Below, one piece after another: positions 45,056 through 55,606 of a DNA stretch of 64,000 nucleotides. The translations under genes were made by a program, and so were the position numbers. This DNA comes from Chitinophagaceae bacterium. GTDB lineage: Bacteria; Bacteroidota; Bacteroidia; Chitinophagales; Chitinophagaceae. Each line of letters begins with the position of its first letter. Position 1 is the stretch's first letter. The stretch is from the NCBI GenBank assembly GCA_024707305.1, contig JANPZZ010000013.1, positions 62,001 to 126,000 of the forward strand, in the 5' to 3' direction. A model generated the notes under the pieces. That model had not been told where the DNA came from, did not search any database, and was given only the letters and a program-made list of their open reading frames with translations.

Positions 45056-46506
45056 TCACTGTCCTTGCGCCAGACTATATGCTTTTTTATCTCCCCATTT
45101 ATTCAACAACTCGAGTGAGCAGATTTTGAAGTTGCCGCTGAGGCTTACATACAATCCGATTACATCCTGTTGATTGAGTGCAGAACCATCAATGCTCTCG
45201 AAGCGAACATTGTACTGGTTCACCAGGTTGGTATACAATGAACCCGTAGGCCATACCTGTGTACCGCGGTTGCTGATGTTAATAAGGTTAAATTTCACGC
45301 CGGCATGACGCTGGCATTTATGTGCAATTGCTTCTGGTTGTTCAGAGCTTTCGATAAACAGGTCCACACCCACAATTGATTCTGGTTCTGTTTCGCTGCT
45401 TTCCATCATACTGTTTTGAACCAGTTTTAATGGAGCAGGGGTGCCAGGTTTATTGGGAATGATTGGTTTTGCACCAACAGCTGGCATCTTACCAAAGTTG
45501 GCAATGATGGCGTCAGCAAACTGGGTGGTATTTACCGGTGCAATAGATTTATCACCAAAATCGCCTGTTCTCACACCGCTTTCGAGTGTATAAAGCAATG
45601 CGTTTTCAATTACGGCTGCGTTTTCTGTAAGTCCTACGTGTCGTAACATTGCGATACCACTCAGCAATAATGCTGTTGGGTTTGCAATATTTTTTCCTGC
45701 GATATCGGGTGCTGTACCGTGTACCGCTTCAAAAATAGAGATATGGTCGCCGATGTTTGCAGAGGGAGCAAAACCTAAACCACCTACTAAACCAGCACAC
45801 AAATCGCTCACGATATCACCCTGCAGGTTCGTCAGCACCACCACATCAAATGTATCTGGTCGCGTAACGAGTTTCATACAGAGATCATCAACGATAATAT
45901 CGTCTGCTTTCAGATCAGGATATTCTTTTGCTACTTCATAAAAACATTCCAGGAACAAACCATCCGTAATTTTCATGATGTTAGCCTTGTGACCGCAAGT
46001 AATTCGACGTGCTTTTTTCTGGCGGGCCATTTCGAAAGCATAACGAATCACCTGCATACTTCCGGGACGTGTAATAAAACGGCGGCTGAGCGCAACGTCG
46101 TGCGTGAGCATATGTTCAACACCTCCGTAGGTGTCTTCAATATTTTCACGTACAACCGTAATGTCAATCGGAATACCTGCTTTGCTGAAAACTGTATCCA
46201 CACCATGCAGGCTTTGGAAAGCCCTTTTGTTGGCATACGTGTTCCAGGTTTTACGAGCCGTTACGTTGATACTTTTTACACCTTTTCCTTTAGGCGTTTC
46301 CATAGGACCCTTAAAAGTAGTCCCAGGTTTTCAATTGTCTGACGTGCCTCAGGCGTCATTCCATTGTTGAAACCTTTGTCGAAAACCCATTTACCCATGT
46401 CTACCATTTCGTATTCAAGGGGTGTATTGTTGGCATTAAAAATGCGCAGAACGGCATCCATGATCTCGGGACCGATACCATCACCTTTTGCTACAGCTAT
46501 TTTCAT
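45056..46506 (-). CDS. icd: NADP-dependent isocitrate dehydrogenase (frameshift at 46323-46325)
   Basis: MKIAVAKGDGIGPEIMDAVLRIF, then ...TTFKGPMETPKGKGVKSINVTARKTWNTYANKRAFQSLHGVDTVFSKAGIPIDITVVRENIEDTYGGVEH. Confidence 0.93.
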
Positions 46507-48725: not shown

Positions 48726-48944
48726 AACTTATCGATTTCACAGGTGTTTGGTAATAACAATAGGGTACGGATCAAAATGTGTACTAAAATAATAAAAACA
48801 TACAGTTTTGCGCCTTTCGGGGATAATTAACCGAATGATCTGTAGTTTTACAGCGCATTACAAGCGTGTTTTTACCGAATATATACCTGACAACCTGCAT
48901 TTTACCCCTCGTAAACATGCCGGAATCACAAACTCATAACACAT

Positions 48945-50473
48945 ATGTCTACCAGGAAAGCGATATTGATCATTATGGACGGGTGGGGACTCGGAAAAGT
49001 TGCATCGGCGGATGCCATCCAGCAGGCCAAAACTCCTTTGTTTCAGCATTATACAACCAATACCCTCATAGTGAGCTCATTACATGTGGTGAAGCGGTGG
49101 GCCTCCCCGAGGGGCAAATGGGGAATTCTGAAGTGGGGCATTTGAACCTCGGAGCCGGACGCGTGGTTTACCAGGAGCTGCAGCGGATCAATGTCGCTAT
49201 CAGGGAAGGCGAGCTGGCAGGGAATGCAAACCTGCTGCGCGCGCTGGAACATGCTAAACTTCAAGGCAAGCCCGTTCACCTGATGGGACTGGTAAGCGAT
49301 GGCGGCGTACACTCGCACATCAACCACCTGAAAGCACTTGTCGACATCTGCCATACACAGGGCCTGGGCGAAGTTTATATCCATGCATTTACCGACGGGC
49401 GCGACTGCGACCCCAAAAGCGGCCTGGGCTTCTTAACTGATCTGCAGGGCCACCTCGATAAAACAACCGGAAAAATCGCCAGTGTAAGTGGCCGTTATTA
49501 TGCCATGGACCGCGATAAACGCTGGGAGCGTGTGAAGCTGGCTTATGATGCCCTTGTAAATGGCAAGGGACAAATGGCTTCAAGTGGCATTGCTGCAGTG
49601 GCAGATTCTTATGAGAAGAACGTGTCTGACGAATTCATCCTTCCCACTGTTATCGTTAATGCAGACCAGCAACCTGTTGCTACCATCCGATCGGGTGATA
49701 TAGTGATTTGTTTCAACTTCCGCACCGACCGCTGTCGCGAAATTACAGAGGTATTAACACAACATGATATTCCAGATCACGACATGTATAAACTGTCGAT
49801 TGACTATACCACGATGACGCAGTATGATCAAAGTTATCAGGGAGTTCATGTTCTTTTCAACAACGATGATTTGCGGATGACGATTGGTGAAGTGTTGGAA
49901 AAAGCAGGTAAAAAACAAATCCGAATTGCAGAAACAGAAAAATATCCGCACGTTACTTTCTTCTTTAGTGGCGGTCGTGAAGTTCCTTTTGAAGGTGAAA
50001 CGCGCATCATGGTACCATCACCCAAAGTAGCTACTTACGATCTTAAACCGGAGATGAGTGCGTATGAAATGACAGACGCATTGCTGCCTCATTTGCAGGA
50101 CGGAGCAGTAGATTTTGTGTGCCTTAACTATGCCAATGCCGACATGGTTGGTCATACCGGCATATTTGAAGCGGCTATAAAAGCTGTAGAAACCGTTGAC
50201 ACCTGTGTGAGCAAGGTCGTTACTACTGCACTCGCAAATGGATATACGATATTCCTCACAGCAGATCATGGCAACTCCGACTACATGCGCAATGAAGACG
50301 GTAGTCCCAATACAGCACATACTTTGAACCCTGTCCCCTTCTTCGTTATTGATAATCAATGGCGTGGAACTCTCAAAAACGGCAAACTTGCCGACATCGC
50401 TCCTACAATTCTTAACTGGATGCAAATAGCTGCACCCGTGGAGATGACTGGTGAGATATTGATGGGAGAATAG
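48945..50473 (+). CDS. gpmI: 2,3-bisphosphoglycerate-independent phosphoglycerate mutase (frameshift near 49059)
   Basis: MSTRKAILIIMDGWGLG, then GLPEGQMGNSEVGHLNLGAGRVVYQELQRIN...TADHGNSDYMRNEDGSPNTAHT. Confidence 0.95.
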
Positions 50474-50620
50474 TGGGGGGATGGATGGGGGATGGGGGAT
50501 GGTGGATGGGGGATGGTGGATGGAAGATGGATGGAGGATGGTGGATGGATGGGGGATGGATGGGGGATGGGGGATGGTGGATGGATGGGGGATGGTGGAA
50601 TGGAAGATGGTGGATGGAAG
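50474..50620 (+). repeat. GGATGGN heptad array
   Basis: ggggggatggatgggggatgggggatggtggatgggggatgg..., about 145 bp. Confidence 0.95.
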
Positions 50621-50629
50621 CATTTCCGC

Positions 50630-50692
50630 AATTTCACATTTCCGCATTTCCTCATTTCCACATTTCCTCATTCGCACATTTCCACATTTCCC
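50630..50692 (+). repeat. CATTTCC array
   Basis: catttccgcatttcctcatttccacatttcctcattcgcacatttccacatttcc. Confidence 0.92.
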
Positions 50693-50789
50693 CCTCCCGT
50701 GTTTTCCTCTCTTTTCCCCGGAAAATTACTTTCCCGTGCAGCTTTCGTAATCAAAAATTGTCTAAATTACGGGCAACCAAACGGGAATT

Positions 50790-51371
50790 ATGACAGAAGA
50801 AGCCATCCTGAAAGGTTGTTTAAACAATGAAGCAGTAGCACAGCGTGAACTGTACAACCGGTTCAGCGCGAAAATGCTGGCTGTTTGTTACCGTTATGCG
50901 CATAACCGTGAAGATGCGGAGGACATGTTGCAGGAAGGGTTCATCAAGGTATTCATGCAGATGCATACGTTCGAAAACCGTGGTGCTTTTGAAGGATGGA
51001 TCAGACGAATAATTGTTCATACCTGCATCAATATCCTGAAGAAGAATAAGAAGTTCAATGAAAGTGTTGATATCATTCATGCCAACAGCATCCAGGTAAG
51101 AGAGGATTCTGTATCATCGATCGTACAGGCAAAACAGGTGGTGGAATGCATCCGGTTGTTGCCCATCGGTTACAGAACAGTATTGAACCTGTACGCTGTG
51201 GAAGGATTTAGTCATAGAGAGATTGCACAAATGCTGGAAGTGGAAGAGAGTACGAGCCGTAGCCAGTATACGCGTGCCAAGACGATGTTGGAAGATATAC
51301 TGATCCGAAAAAGGATCCTGCAAAAACCAAAACAAGATATTGATTGGCTTGTCGCCGTTAGCCAGCGGTAG
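50790..51371 (+). CDS. ECF-type RNA polymerase sigma factor
   Basis: YRYAHNREDAEDMLQEGFIKVFMQM (region 2), LPIGYRTVLNLYAVEGFSHREIAQMLEVEESTSRSQYTRAKTML (region 4). Confidence 0.94.
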   Translation: MTEEAILKGCLNNEAVAQRELYNRFSAKMLAVCYRYAHNREDAEDMLQEGFIKVFMQMHTFENRGAFEGWIRRIIVHTCINILKKNKKFNESVDIIHANSIQVREDSVSSIVQAKQVVECIRLLPIGYRTVLNLYAVEGFSHREIAQMLEVEESTSRSQYTRAKTMLEDILIRKRILQKPKQDIDWLVAVSQR

Positions 51372-51404
51372 TCCGTCCCTTAAATGATTCAACTGGTTAT
51401 GGAG

Positions 51405-52820
51405 AGAAATTTCAGTAACAGCGATTTTGAGCGGTATGTGCAGAAGAATGCTGACCAGTACCGGATGTTCCCGTCAGAGAAGGTGTGGAACAACGTGCAT
51501 AAGGCATTACATAAGCGCAGAAGATGGTATGGCCTCGGTCTTGCCTGTCTTCTATTGCTTACCGGCACTGCCGTAACCCTGGTAATGCGCTCATACCCCA
51601 TTGTAAAAAAAGACGGCAACCTTACATCTGCTCAAACTCCGGCTTATATCAGCAACGCTTCCGAATCGGACGAAGCAATTATCAGCCAGCCAACAGATAT
51701 TCGCGACCTCACTCCTTTCGAAGATATTGACCAGGAAGTGGAAGAAGCCATTCGCGCGGCTCTGGCACCGCAACCCGCTGTTCTTGCCGACAACAGGAAC
51801 GCCACAAACTTCAACAATAGCAATTCCGAAATATTAAAGGCAGGCGGCGGAACGATTAGTGCGATCAACAGCCGCAGCCAGGAAATGTTGTTGAGCAACC
51901 GCCCACAACCAGAAGTGCAAAAACCACAGGCGATCATAGTGAAAATGGAAGATTACCTGCGAAACCTGAAAGCGCCTGAAGATGTGGCGGTACATGAAGT
52001 GCCGGCAGAAGAAACAAAAGCCCAGGATGCTATTGTTGAATTCAACAACGTCCCCCCATATACCATTGAGAGCGTTGTAAATAGTTATAAACCTGCTCCT
52101 AAACATATCAGCTGGCAATTCTTCATTACACCCACTATCAGCTACCGCAAGCTGAGTGCGAACCAGGACTTCCAGGCATCACCTGGAGGACCGTTGCCAT
52201 TCCCGTTTGCGAACCTGGACAACGTAAACAATGCAGTAACGCATAAACCCGATCTGGGATTCCAGATTGGAATGACCGGCCGCTATCCTCTCAGTAAACG
52301 TATAAACCTCCGGGGGGGCGTTCAGCTGAATGTTAACAAATACGACATCAAAGCATTTGCATATCCTGGCGAGGTAGCAGTGATCAATCTCGATGACCCC
52401 AATAGTACAACAGTTGCAACCTGGACACGCTATCGCAGCCAGAGTGGTTATAAATCTAACTGGTTGAAAAACTCTTATATCTCTATTTCAGTTCCAGTAG
52501 GTGCAGAAGTGAAACTGTTTGGCAATAAGCATACAAATGTGGGAATTGCAGGTACAATCCAACCCACTTATGTGGTTCGTGATAAAGCCTATCTCATTTC
52601 CACCGACTATAAAAATTATGCACAGGTGCCCTGGCTTATCCGCCGCGTAAACATCAGCACAGGCTTCGAAGCTTTTGTAAACTATGGCAAAGGCAAAACA
52701 CAATGGCAGGTGGGACCACAGGTTCGTTACCAGATGCTTTCCAGCTTCCAAAACAAATACCCTGTTAAGGAAAACCTCTTCGACTTTGGGTTGAAAATCG
52801 GCGTAACACTGAATCAATAG
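51405..52820 (+). CDS. Putative anti-sigma factor fused to outer-membrane beta-barrel (dual-membrane-spanning layout)
   Basis: Cytosolic MERNFSNSDFERYVQKNADQYRMFPSEKVWNNVHKALHKRRRW; TM YGLGLACLLLLTGTAVTLVM; about 180-aa linker; C-terminal porin-like segment from ISWQFFITPTISYRKL to FDFGLKIGVTLNQ. Confidence 0.8.
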   Translation, partial: RNFSNSDFERYVQKNADQYRMFPSEKVWNNVHKALHKRRRWYGLGLACLLLLTGTAVTLVMRSYPIVKKDGNLTSAQTPAYISNASESDEAIISQPTDIRDLTPFEDIDQEVEEAIRAALAPQPAVLADNRNATNFNNSNSEILKAGGGTISAINSRSQEMLLSNRPQPEVQKPQAIIVKMEDYLRNLKAPEDVAVHEVPAEETKAQDAIVEFNNVPPYTIESVVNSYKPAPKHISWQFFITPTISYRKLSANQDFQASPGGPLPFPFANLDNVNNAVTHKPDLGFQIGMTGRYPLSKRINLRGGVQLNVNKYDIKAFAYPGEVAVINLDDPNSTTVATWTRYRSQSGYKSNWLKNSYISISVPVGAEVKLFGNKHTNVGIAGTIQPTYVVRDKAYLISTDYKNYAQVPWLIRRVNISTGFEAFVNYGKGKTQWQVGPQVRYQMLSSFQNKYPVKENLFDFGLKIGVTLNQ

Positions 52821-52844
52821 TCGGTAAACAATCACTATACTTAA

Positions 52845-52880
52845 AGAATAATCCCGGAATTTTTCCGGGATTATTCTTTT
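52845..52880. terminator. Rho-independent terminator
   Basis: AGAATAATCCCGGAA-TTT-TTCCGGGATTATTCTTTT. Confidence 0.9.
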
Positions 52881-52966
52881 TAACAATTATGCGAACGAGG
52901 TGTTAGTGTATTCAATATGCACCACCCAAAACTTTAAGTAATTTCGTGTTGAAGAAAATAAATCAA

Positions 52967-53545
52967 ATGAAATTCACGCCCCTCCTTTTCTGTCTCGGTG
53001 CTTTGCTGTTTTTTACAATATCCGGTTGCCAGTCAAAAAAAAAAGAAGAAAATAAACTCTGGCCGGTATTGCCCTACCTGATGAGTGAAGTGTCTGCTGT
53101 AGACAGTTCTATTTCCCGGATTACGAAAATAATCACACGCGAAGATGGAGGTTATGATACCGTTTATATTCACCGGAATGACTTCAGAAAAGAAGCCAGC
53201 GATTTTCTTTCGTTGCCGGATATCAGCAGCACAAAATTTGCAGGTGACTATAAAGAAGAAGAAATCATGGATGAAGGTATCCAGCGTTTCATTGTAAGAC
53301 AAACCCCGCTGAAACCCGAAAAGCAACTGATACAAAGCCAGGAAGTGTTGATAAAACCTGCGCTCGAAGGCGATCAGGTGATGACCATTTTGATCAGCAC
53401 CCTTCAATCAGGCAAAGACAGTTCAGTACAAAAGAGAATGATCTGGAACATTGGAAAATCAATGCAGGTAACTACCATCGTACAAAAAGATAAAGACACG
53501 GAAAAAATAAACACCTATAAAATAACCTGGGGAGATACGGAATGA
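52967..53545 (+). CDS. Putative lipoprotein of unknown function
   Basis: Lipobox LFFTISGCQSKKKEE. Confidence 0.7.
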   Translation: MKFTPLLFCLGALLFFTISGCQSKKKEENKLWPVLPYLMSEVSAVDSSISRITKIITREDGGYDTVYIHRNDFRKEASDFLSLPDISSTKFAGDYKEEEIMDEGIQRFIVRQTPLKPEKQLIQSQEVLIKPALEGDQVMTILISTLQSGKDSSVQKRMIWNIGKSMQVTTIVQKDKDTEKINTYKITWGDTE

Positions 53546-55342
53546 CGCAGGAAGAGTTTCAACATATTGCACCTGGTATACCTCAACAACCTGGTATCTA
53601 TAAATATTACAGCGCCGAAAATGAATTGATCTATGTCGGCAAGGCTAAAGAATATCCGCAAACGTGTAAGTTCTTACTTCATTAAAACACAGGCGAACTT
53701 CAAAACGCATGAACTGGTTCGCAGGATACATCGGATTGAGTTTACCATTGTGGATTCAGAACAGGATGCTTTCCTGTTGGAGAATTCGCTGATCAAAGAA
53801 TTTCAGCCGCATTTTAATATCACACTTAAAGACGATAAGACCTACCCGTATATCGTCATTCGCAATGAACATTTTCCGAGAGTATTCCTCACCCGAAATC
53901 GCATTCCAGATGGTTCCGAATACCTCGGCCCCTATACTTCTGTAAAAAAAGTGCGCGAGCTGATAGAGTTTACCCGACAGACCATTCCATTGCGCACCTG
54001 CAACCTTGCATTGACGCCAAGGAATATTGAAGCGGGAAAATTCAAGGTTTGTCTTGAGTATCATTTGGGCAATTGTAAAGGACCCTGTGAGGCATATCAG
54101 ACGGAAGATGATTATCGTGCAAATCTTGAGCAGCTAAAAAATCTGCTCAAAGGAAATCTTGCGCCGGTAATGCGTCATTTCCGTGAGGAAATGAAAACAT
54201 TTGCGGCCGATCTTGCATTTGAGAAAGCGGAAATTACCAGAAAGAAAATAGAATTTCTCGAAAATTACCAGGCACGGTCCGTTGTGGTGAATGCGAGAAC
54301 AGGCGATCTGGATGTGTTTTCATTTTTGCAGGACGGGGAACGTGCTTTTGTAAATTACCTCCAGTTAAGAAACGGAGCCATTGTGCAAACACATACAAGT
54401 CCGGTGGAAGCTCATCTGGATGAAACACCAGCAGAAGTGTTGGCTTTTTCAGTAGCCCGTTTACGCAATATCTTTAATAGTGAATCGCCGGAGATAGTCG
54501 TTCCTTTTGAAATAGAATTTCCGGAGGAAGGAATTCGGATTACAGTTCCAAAAGCCGGCGACAAAAAGAAGTTGCTGGAATTATCAGAAAAAAACGCGGG
54601 ATATTTCCTTGAAGAGGTGAAACACCGCGCTCGTCTGCGTCTCAACCAGGGTAAGGATCCGATGGAAGTGCTTTCGCAACTACAGGATGATTTGCAGCTA
54701 CCGCAGTTGCCCATTCATATCGAATGTTTCGATAATTCCAACTTTCAGGGAAGTTATCCTGTTTCCGCAATGGTGTGTTTCAAAAATGGGGCGCCGAGTA
54801 AGGCTGATTACAGGCATTTTAACGTACGAACGGTTGAAGGAATCAATGACTTCGCTTCGATGAAAGAAGCCGTTTATCGGCGCTATAAACGCTTGAAAGA
54901 AGAAGATGCGCCCTTCCCCCAGCTTATCATTATTGACGGCGGCAAAGGGCAGCTGGGTGCCGCATTGGATGCTTTCCGTGAACTGGAACTTTTGGGCAGA
55001 AGCACGCTGGTGGGACTTGCAAAAAATGAGGAAGAATTGTTCTTCGCCGGCGACCAGGAATCGCTCAGGCTGCCATATAATAGTGATAGTTTATTGTTGA
55101 TTCGTCGCATACGTGACGAAGTACACCGTTTTGGCATCACATTCCACCGCCAGAAACGAAGCAGGGGCACTTTTAAGAATGAGCTGGAAGATATTCCCGG
55201 CATTGGCAAAACGACGGCTGCAGAGTTATTAAAGACTTTTAAATCAGTAAAAAAAGTAAAGGAAGCCAGTCTGGATGAACTGGCCGCGCTGATTGGTTTG
55301 TCGAAAGCGCGCAAGCTGCAAGCGCATTTGCGTGAGGCTTGA
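53542..55342 (+). CDS. uvrC: Excinuclease ABC subunit C (frameshift near 53647-53650)
   Basis: MTQEEFQHIAPGIPQQPGIYKYYSAENELIYVGKAK|NIRKRVSSYFIKTQ...; IECFDNSNFQG; HhH FKNELEDIPGIGKTTAAELLKTFKSVKKVKEAS. ATGA overlap with the preceding gene. Confidence 0.96.
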
Positions 55343-55517: not shown

Positions 55518-55606
55518 ACATTCCCTCATTTCCACATCTCCTCATTTTCACATCTCCTCATTTTCACATTCCCCCATTTCCACATTTCCCCATTTCCACA
55601 TTTTCT
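55518..55606 (+). repeat. CACATTTCC/CATTTTCA array
   Basis: acattccctcatttccacatctcctcattttcacatctcc... Confidence 0.88.

Follow-up and report, generated by a model that had tools for sequence, protein, structure and literature searches.

The locus lies in a 64,000-nt window, the whole stretch of DNA analyzed here, in which an ECF sigma factor gene is followed by a gene (dma) for a putative dual-membrane anti-sigma factor and by a lipoprotein gene. The features, all on the forward strand, are as follows:

50737..50764, +, likely ECF-type promoter TGCAGC-N16-TGTCTA, an exact match ahead of the sigma gene
50790..51371, +, ECF sigma factor gene (das/ecfO-like), 193 aa (ORF, domain matches, tree)
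51399..52820, +, dma gene, 473 residues (ORF, relatives' starts, AF2 model)
51399..51518, +, predicted cytoplasmic anti-sigma domain, Dma residues 1-40 (alignments, AF2 models)
51519..51590, +, predicted inner-membrane TM helix, Dma residues 41-64, preceded by KRRRW (AF2, hydropathy)
51591..52109, +, predicted periplasmic tether, Dma residues 65-237, mostly disordered and variable in length and sequence
52110..52811, +, predicted outer-membrane beta-barrel, Dma residues 238-471 (AF2, Foldseek, PF13568, profile comparison)
52843..52881, +, hairpin with A/T tracts resembling an intrinsic terminator, between dma and the lipoprotein gene
52967..53545, +, lipoprotein gene of a conserved, uvrC-linked family, neighbor of dma

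The isocitrate dehydrogenase-like, iPGM and uvrC genes (window 45056-46506; 48866-50473 with 48945-49145; 53541-55342) each appear to be split over two frames, as single-base indels would cause, through assembly errors or as pseudogenes. Short tandem repeats of the GGATGG and CATTTCC types occur at window 50476-50618, 50620-50691 and 55518-55603, and those of the CATTTCC type flank the sigma-dma-uvrC stretch on both sides.

The first gene of the pair encodes a sigma factor of the ECF type, as judged by Pfam matches to Sigma70_r2 (E 3e-16) and r4_2 (E 1.5e-13) and by a score over the cut-off for TIGR02937 in NCBIfam, and it is homologous to the sigma factors of the Bacteroides group. Read from its first ATG, the dma ORF covers 51384-52820 (478 aa) and leaves a gap of 12 nt to the sigma gene. 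As relatives start at the second ATG (MERN...), translation most likely begins at 51399, giving a protein of 473 residues and a gap of 27 nt; the start at 51405 claimed in the original prediction is two codons late. The proposed pairing of an ECF sigma factor with a hybrid anti-sigma/barrel protein was borne out, both ORFs being present and a sigma gene standing beside the homologues as well. The two genes are adjacent in 22/22 orthologues, and an ECF sigma match was found beside the dma homologue on the same strand at all loci L031-L063. An ECF match also occurs at nearly all loci L124-L163 and at 80/80 named Bacteroides-group loci (L164-L243). Pfam and NCBIfam scans detected no FecR-type domain in the window Dma, which sets it apart from the FecR-type TonB-dependent anti-sigma systems. 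Two genes joined by an assembly or reading error could mimic such a hybrid, and other conserved genes of the window do show apparent frameshifts. However, the same full-length frame is kept in relatives, one of them a single-contig genome, which, on sequence comparison, we take to have already refuted this negligibly probable explanation.

An AF2 model of the window Dma, built on alignment A1 with 32 homologues, consists of two N-terminal helices, a TM helix, a disordered tether and a C-terminal barrel of 8-10 strands. The single TM helix, previously placed at residues 44-65, is modeled at 41-64, in agreement with hydropathy: a strong segment (mean KD > 1.6) lies within residues 25-75 in 26/32 homologues, and no second strong segment was found in any of the 32. 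The tether shows pLDDT < 50 over most of residues 70-217, as would be expected of the long disordered linker that had been predicted. It measures 139-256 residues among the 32 homologues and is the least conserved region of the protein; a chain of this length is long enough to cross the periplasm. The strands of the barrel lie within residues 238-471, most of which have pLDDT > 90, and Foldseek matched the barrel to small outer-membrane proteins of 8-10 strands (OmpA, NspA, OmpW, OpcA and Legionella porins, E 1e-7 to 1e-4), in line with the 8-12 strands anticipated. PF13568 (OMP_b-brl_2) matched Dma at E 4.8e-5, under its curated cut-off, and a sequence search against solved structures gave no match. 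In the homologue alignment, whose more distant A1 rows share a low identity of 14-30%, both ends of Dma are conserved, unlike the tether. The dual-membrane anti-sigma architecture is thus upheld by the modeled helix, tether and barrel together with the conserved ends, and one Dma chain is predicted to span the cytoplasm, the inner membrane, the periplasm and the outer membrane.

A chain of this composition might instead be cleaved in the periplasm as a normal step of its maturation; the anchor and the barrel would then be two proteins, and nothing would span both membranes. The disordered, poorly conserved tether would be an easy protease target, and homologues of 242-289 aa with an anti-sigma domain, a TM helix and a tail but no barrel match occur beside ECF sigma genes (L146, L147, L148, L151). 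Yet, in 22/22 orthologues of the clade both ends are encoded within one gene, which a disposable link would not need, and the authors of the Reo and Dma work also interpret the chain as spanning. We consider such cleavage unlikely and retain the spanning chain as the preferred reading.

The cytoplasmic part of Dma is modeled with helices at residues 7-18 and 27-38 and carries the motif DFE...PSxxVW with the invariant Trp30. The domain had no convincing Pfam or NCBIfam match, but it aligns between the window group and the Bacteroides group, with one Trp invariant. As sigma and dma share a reading frame, reading the stops as glycine yields an artificial chain in which sigma runs on into the anti-sigma domain and the TM helix, and this chain was modeled. 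Of 55 distinct loci with sigma and dma in frame, 45 were aligned (A3), and ten, mostly near-copies, were omitted by eye. The read-through chain of the window reached a pTM of 0.76 with these 45 paired rows. Its anti-sigma helices had pLDDT values of about 92-96 vs. about 60-75 without sigma, a gain that may partly reflect the differing alignment (45 paired rows vs. 32) or the forced tether. The nearest PDB entries in Foldseek, by an alignment covering the sigma part of the model, include SigW-RsiW (TMt about 0.65), AlgU-MucA, sigmaE-RseA and CnrH-CnrY. Under these models, the anti-sigma helices are predicted to contact sigma.

To assess how widely the hybrid occurs, we searched with the window Dma as query and obtained matches in 25/61 related genomes, its own genome counted, while a Dma profile matched 76/393 genomes of the phylum at E ≤ 1e-5. 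For a Bacteroides-like genus, 47/61 genomes matched at a loose E ≤ 0.1, many of them partially. The matches in the related genomes, the conserved ends and the adjoining ECF sigma gene indicate that the hybrid is more than chance. The short homologues mentioned above belong to other families of the class and show an anti-sigma domain and a TM helix without a barrel match.

Sigma groups were named from gene order before tree building. In the tree of 79 sigma sequences, the window sigma and 21 other uvrC-linked sigmas formed one group with 100/100 support, separate from the Bacteroides (Das1-type) sigmas and from a paralogue group (100/100). This supports the distinct lineage that had been suspected, in a bacterial family that is probably Chitinophagaceae. 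Sigma, dma and uvrC occur together in 22/22 clade members, many of which keep the order iPGM - sigma - dma - lipoprotein - uvrC. The same genome holds a second pair (G000:C25:251278-252741, L055), likewise an ECF sigma factor with a barrel-bearing anti-sigma factor. This paralogue belongs to a separate clade (100/100) and to the promoter class GCAAC-N17-TGTCA, as opposed to TGCAGC-N16-TGTCTA in the window.

At ten named Bacteroides-group loci that we inspected, a NigD-like gene (recognized by eye) lies divergently before sigma and dma, and in some of them a pflA-like gene follows dma. These probably represent the BT_4720/BT_4721 (Das1/Dma1) locus, judging by gene order, by locus numbers and by a paper in which BT_4720/21 is termed a sigma/anti-sigma pair (PMC10861873).

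The Dma/Reo architecture is already published for Bacteroides and Phocaeicola (Reo 2022; Dma1 2024; Dma2 2026). An anti-sigma factor of P. vulgatus with an inner TM helix and an outer-membrane barrel was described in 2022 (PMC9308784), and in 2026 Reo was described as spanning all compartments (PMC13114119). In the EcfO-Reo systems of Bacteroides fragilis and Phocaeicola vulgatus (PMC9308784, PMC13114119), an ECF sigma factor is likewise followed by a protein with a cytoplasmic domain, a TM helix, a periplasmic stretch and a barrel. The window sigma, however, falls in a clade other than that of the Bacteroides-group sigmas, and the EcfO regulon has nigD genes, whereas the window neighbors are iPGM, the lipoprotein gene without a Pfam match and uvrC. 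The four-part domain order and an adjacent ECF sigma factor recur in Bacteroides thetaiotaomicron, in Dma1-Das1 and Dma2-Das2. EcfO was described in PMC3536166 and Dma1 in doi 10.1073/pnas.2321910121, as cited in later papers; roles in vesiculation and at glycan loci are reported for the B. thetaiotaomicron Dma systems only. The noted resemblance to Bacteroides Dma is supported for the barrel, to which the match between the window and Bacteroides-group profiles is confined (hhalign, prob. 98%, E 5e-14), and the anti-sigma domain alignment agrees with it. A natural fusion of the Dma3 type (B. faecis, L112, P0003) also combines an ECF sigma factor, a TM segment and a barrel, but there the sigma itself is joined to the TM segment and barrel, while the window has two genes. 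L112 was considered as a natural test of the sigma/anti-sigma contact and dropped, since it shows no evident anti-sigma domain of its own. A likely second fusion of this type lies at G466:C56:7825-9489. Our literature search found no paper on a dual-membrane anti-sigma architecture in Chitinophaga. By family assignment and architecture, the window pair very probably consists of an ECF sigma factor and a cognate anti-sigma factor of the Dma/Reo type.

Next to the gene order, the promoter distinguishes the window clade. GCAGC-N16-TGTCT occurs exactly upstream of the sigma gene in 15/22 orthologues, with shuffles reaching at most 2-3, although these sites are not independent because the orthologues are related. 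In the paralogue group the corresponding sequence is GCAAC-N17-TGTCA (9/9), and the Bacteroides das1-type loci have GCAGT-N16-CATTT (61/79), a class different from that of the window. When the 12-base form was searched in 13 genomes with spacers of 15 to 17, it was found at the sigma gene in most of them, with zero to three other sites per genome, several of these falling within genes. As the 12-base sites are mostly at the sigma gene, the sigma probably controls its own transcription. The search for a wider regulon with this form, which gave mostly the auto-site and scattered single matches, does not point to a large one. TGCAGC-N16-TGTCTA is thus likely, judging by its sequence and position, the autoregulatory promoter of the window sigma, and the conserved autoregulatory promoter of this clade would be new here. 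In B. thetaiotaomicron, deleting dma2 relieves repression of the operon to which it belongs, das2 and neighboring genes rise, and the resulting vesicle phenotype requires das2 (PMC13088901); the das2 rise fits autoregulation. In three genomes, a looser 10-base form, GCAGC-N17-TGTCT, precedes SusC-like genes (L301, L290, L315, L322). These sites sit at similar distances within pairs, yet the numbers expected by chance are high and they may be due to chance.

The lipoprotein gene had been put forward as a dedicated partner of dma, and this part of the original prediction was not supported. The hairpin between the two genes has a folding energy of -23.7 kcal/mol (z -5.3), and no shuffle folds as well. 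A stricter terminator scan did not call it, probably because its T-run pairs within the stem. Similar hairpins are found between dma and the lipoprotein gene in several orthologues and are absent in others; in two the gap is below 10 nt. The lipoprotein itself gave no convincing Pfam match. It was matched in genomes without a Dma match (G003, G008, G009, G014, G020, G023, G026, G029, G034, and G054 from another family), several of these matches being weak, and uvrC adjoins the lipoprotein gene in G009, G014, G020, G023 and G026 of this set. Since the hairpin splits the gene off from dma and its linkage to uvrC persists without a detectable Dma, we rejected a dedicated partnership as unsupported. 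We regard the gene as a uvrC-linked neighbor that is probably not a dedicated part of the sigma-dma system.

In the mechanism that we propose, the two-helix domain would bind and inhibit sigma in the cytoplasm, the single helix would anchor Dma in the inner membrane and the disordered tether would cross the periplasm. The barrel, once assembled in the outer membrane, would serve as a sentinel for the integrity of the outer membrane and for barrel assembly. Upon failure of assembly or disturbance of the outer membrane, inhibition would be lifted, either mechanically or by regulated proteolysis, and the freed sigma would transcribe chiefly its own operon from TGCAGC-N16-TGTCTA. A site-2 protease match in the same genome (G000:C14:108611-109886, split over two frames) says little in this respect, as such a match is present in 14/14 control genomes. 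We favor the sentinel function on account of relatives that react to envelope toxins and to BamA inhibition. In Phocaeicola, both BcpT and the BamA inhibitor bacteroidetocin A induce EcfO-Reo, for which the authors propose sensing of outer-membrane stress (PMC9308784, PMC13114119). This stress signal is taken by analogy from relatives in another clade, and we see about an even chance that outer-membrane integrity is what the window Dma would sense. It is quite improbable that, in this distinct uvrC-side clade, the regulon is roughly its own operon, with the outer-membrane state fed back on the sensor and, via read-through of the hairpin, possibly on the lipoprotein and uvrC genes.

The same architecture could also support a receptor, in which a ligand such as a glycan, bound at the loops of the barrel, would trigger release of sigma. 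Dma2 authors hypothesize sensing of an unknown glycan (PMC13088901), and segments around YLxSxDYKNY and SxxxxxYPxKE, outside or at the edge of the strands, are strongly conserved in the clade, perhaps beyond the needs of a purely structural barrel. On the other hand, the context of iPGM, uvrC and the lipoprotein gene offers no obvious polysaccharide locus, and the response of relatives to envelope-damaging toxins and the BamA inhibitor (PMC9308784) speaks for the sentinel. We hold ligand sensing to be possible though doubtful; the conservation of the two segments near strand ends keeps it a serious rival of the outer-membrane sentinel.

The window pair is a further member of the Dma/Reo family, in a distinct clade. 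The family, studied so far in gut Bacteroides and Phocaeicola, now extends to a well-supported clade of another family of bacteria, with a conserved promoter and gene order of its own, and homologues with an anti-sigma domain but no detectable barrel have been revealed. With a promoter defined, the signal can be tested with a simple reporter. The comparison also helps to distinguish features that may not be general to the Dma/Reo family, such as nigD, the lipoprotein and vesiculation.
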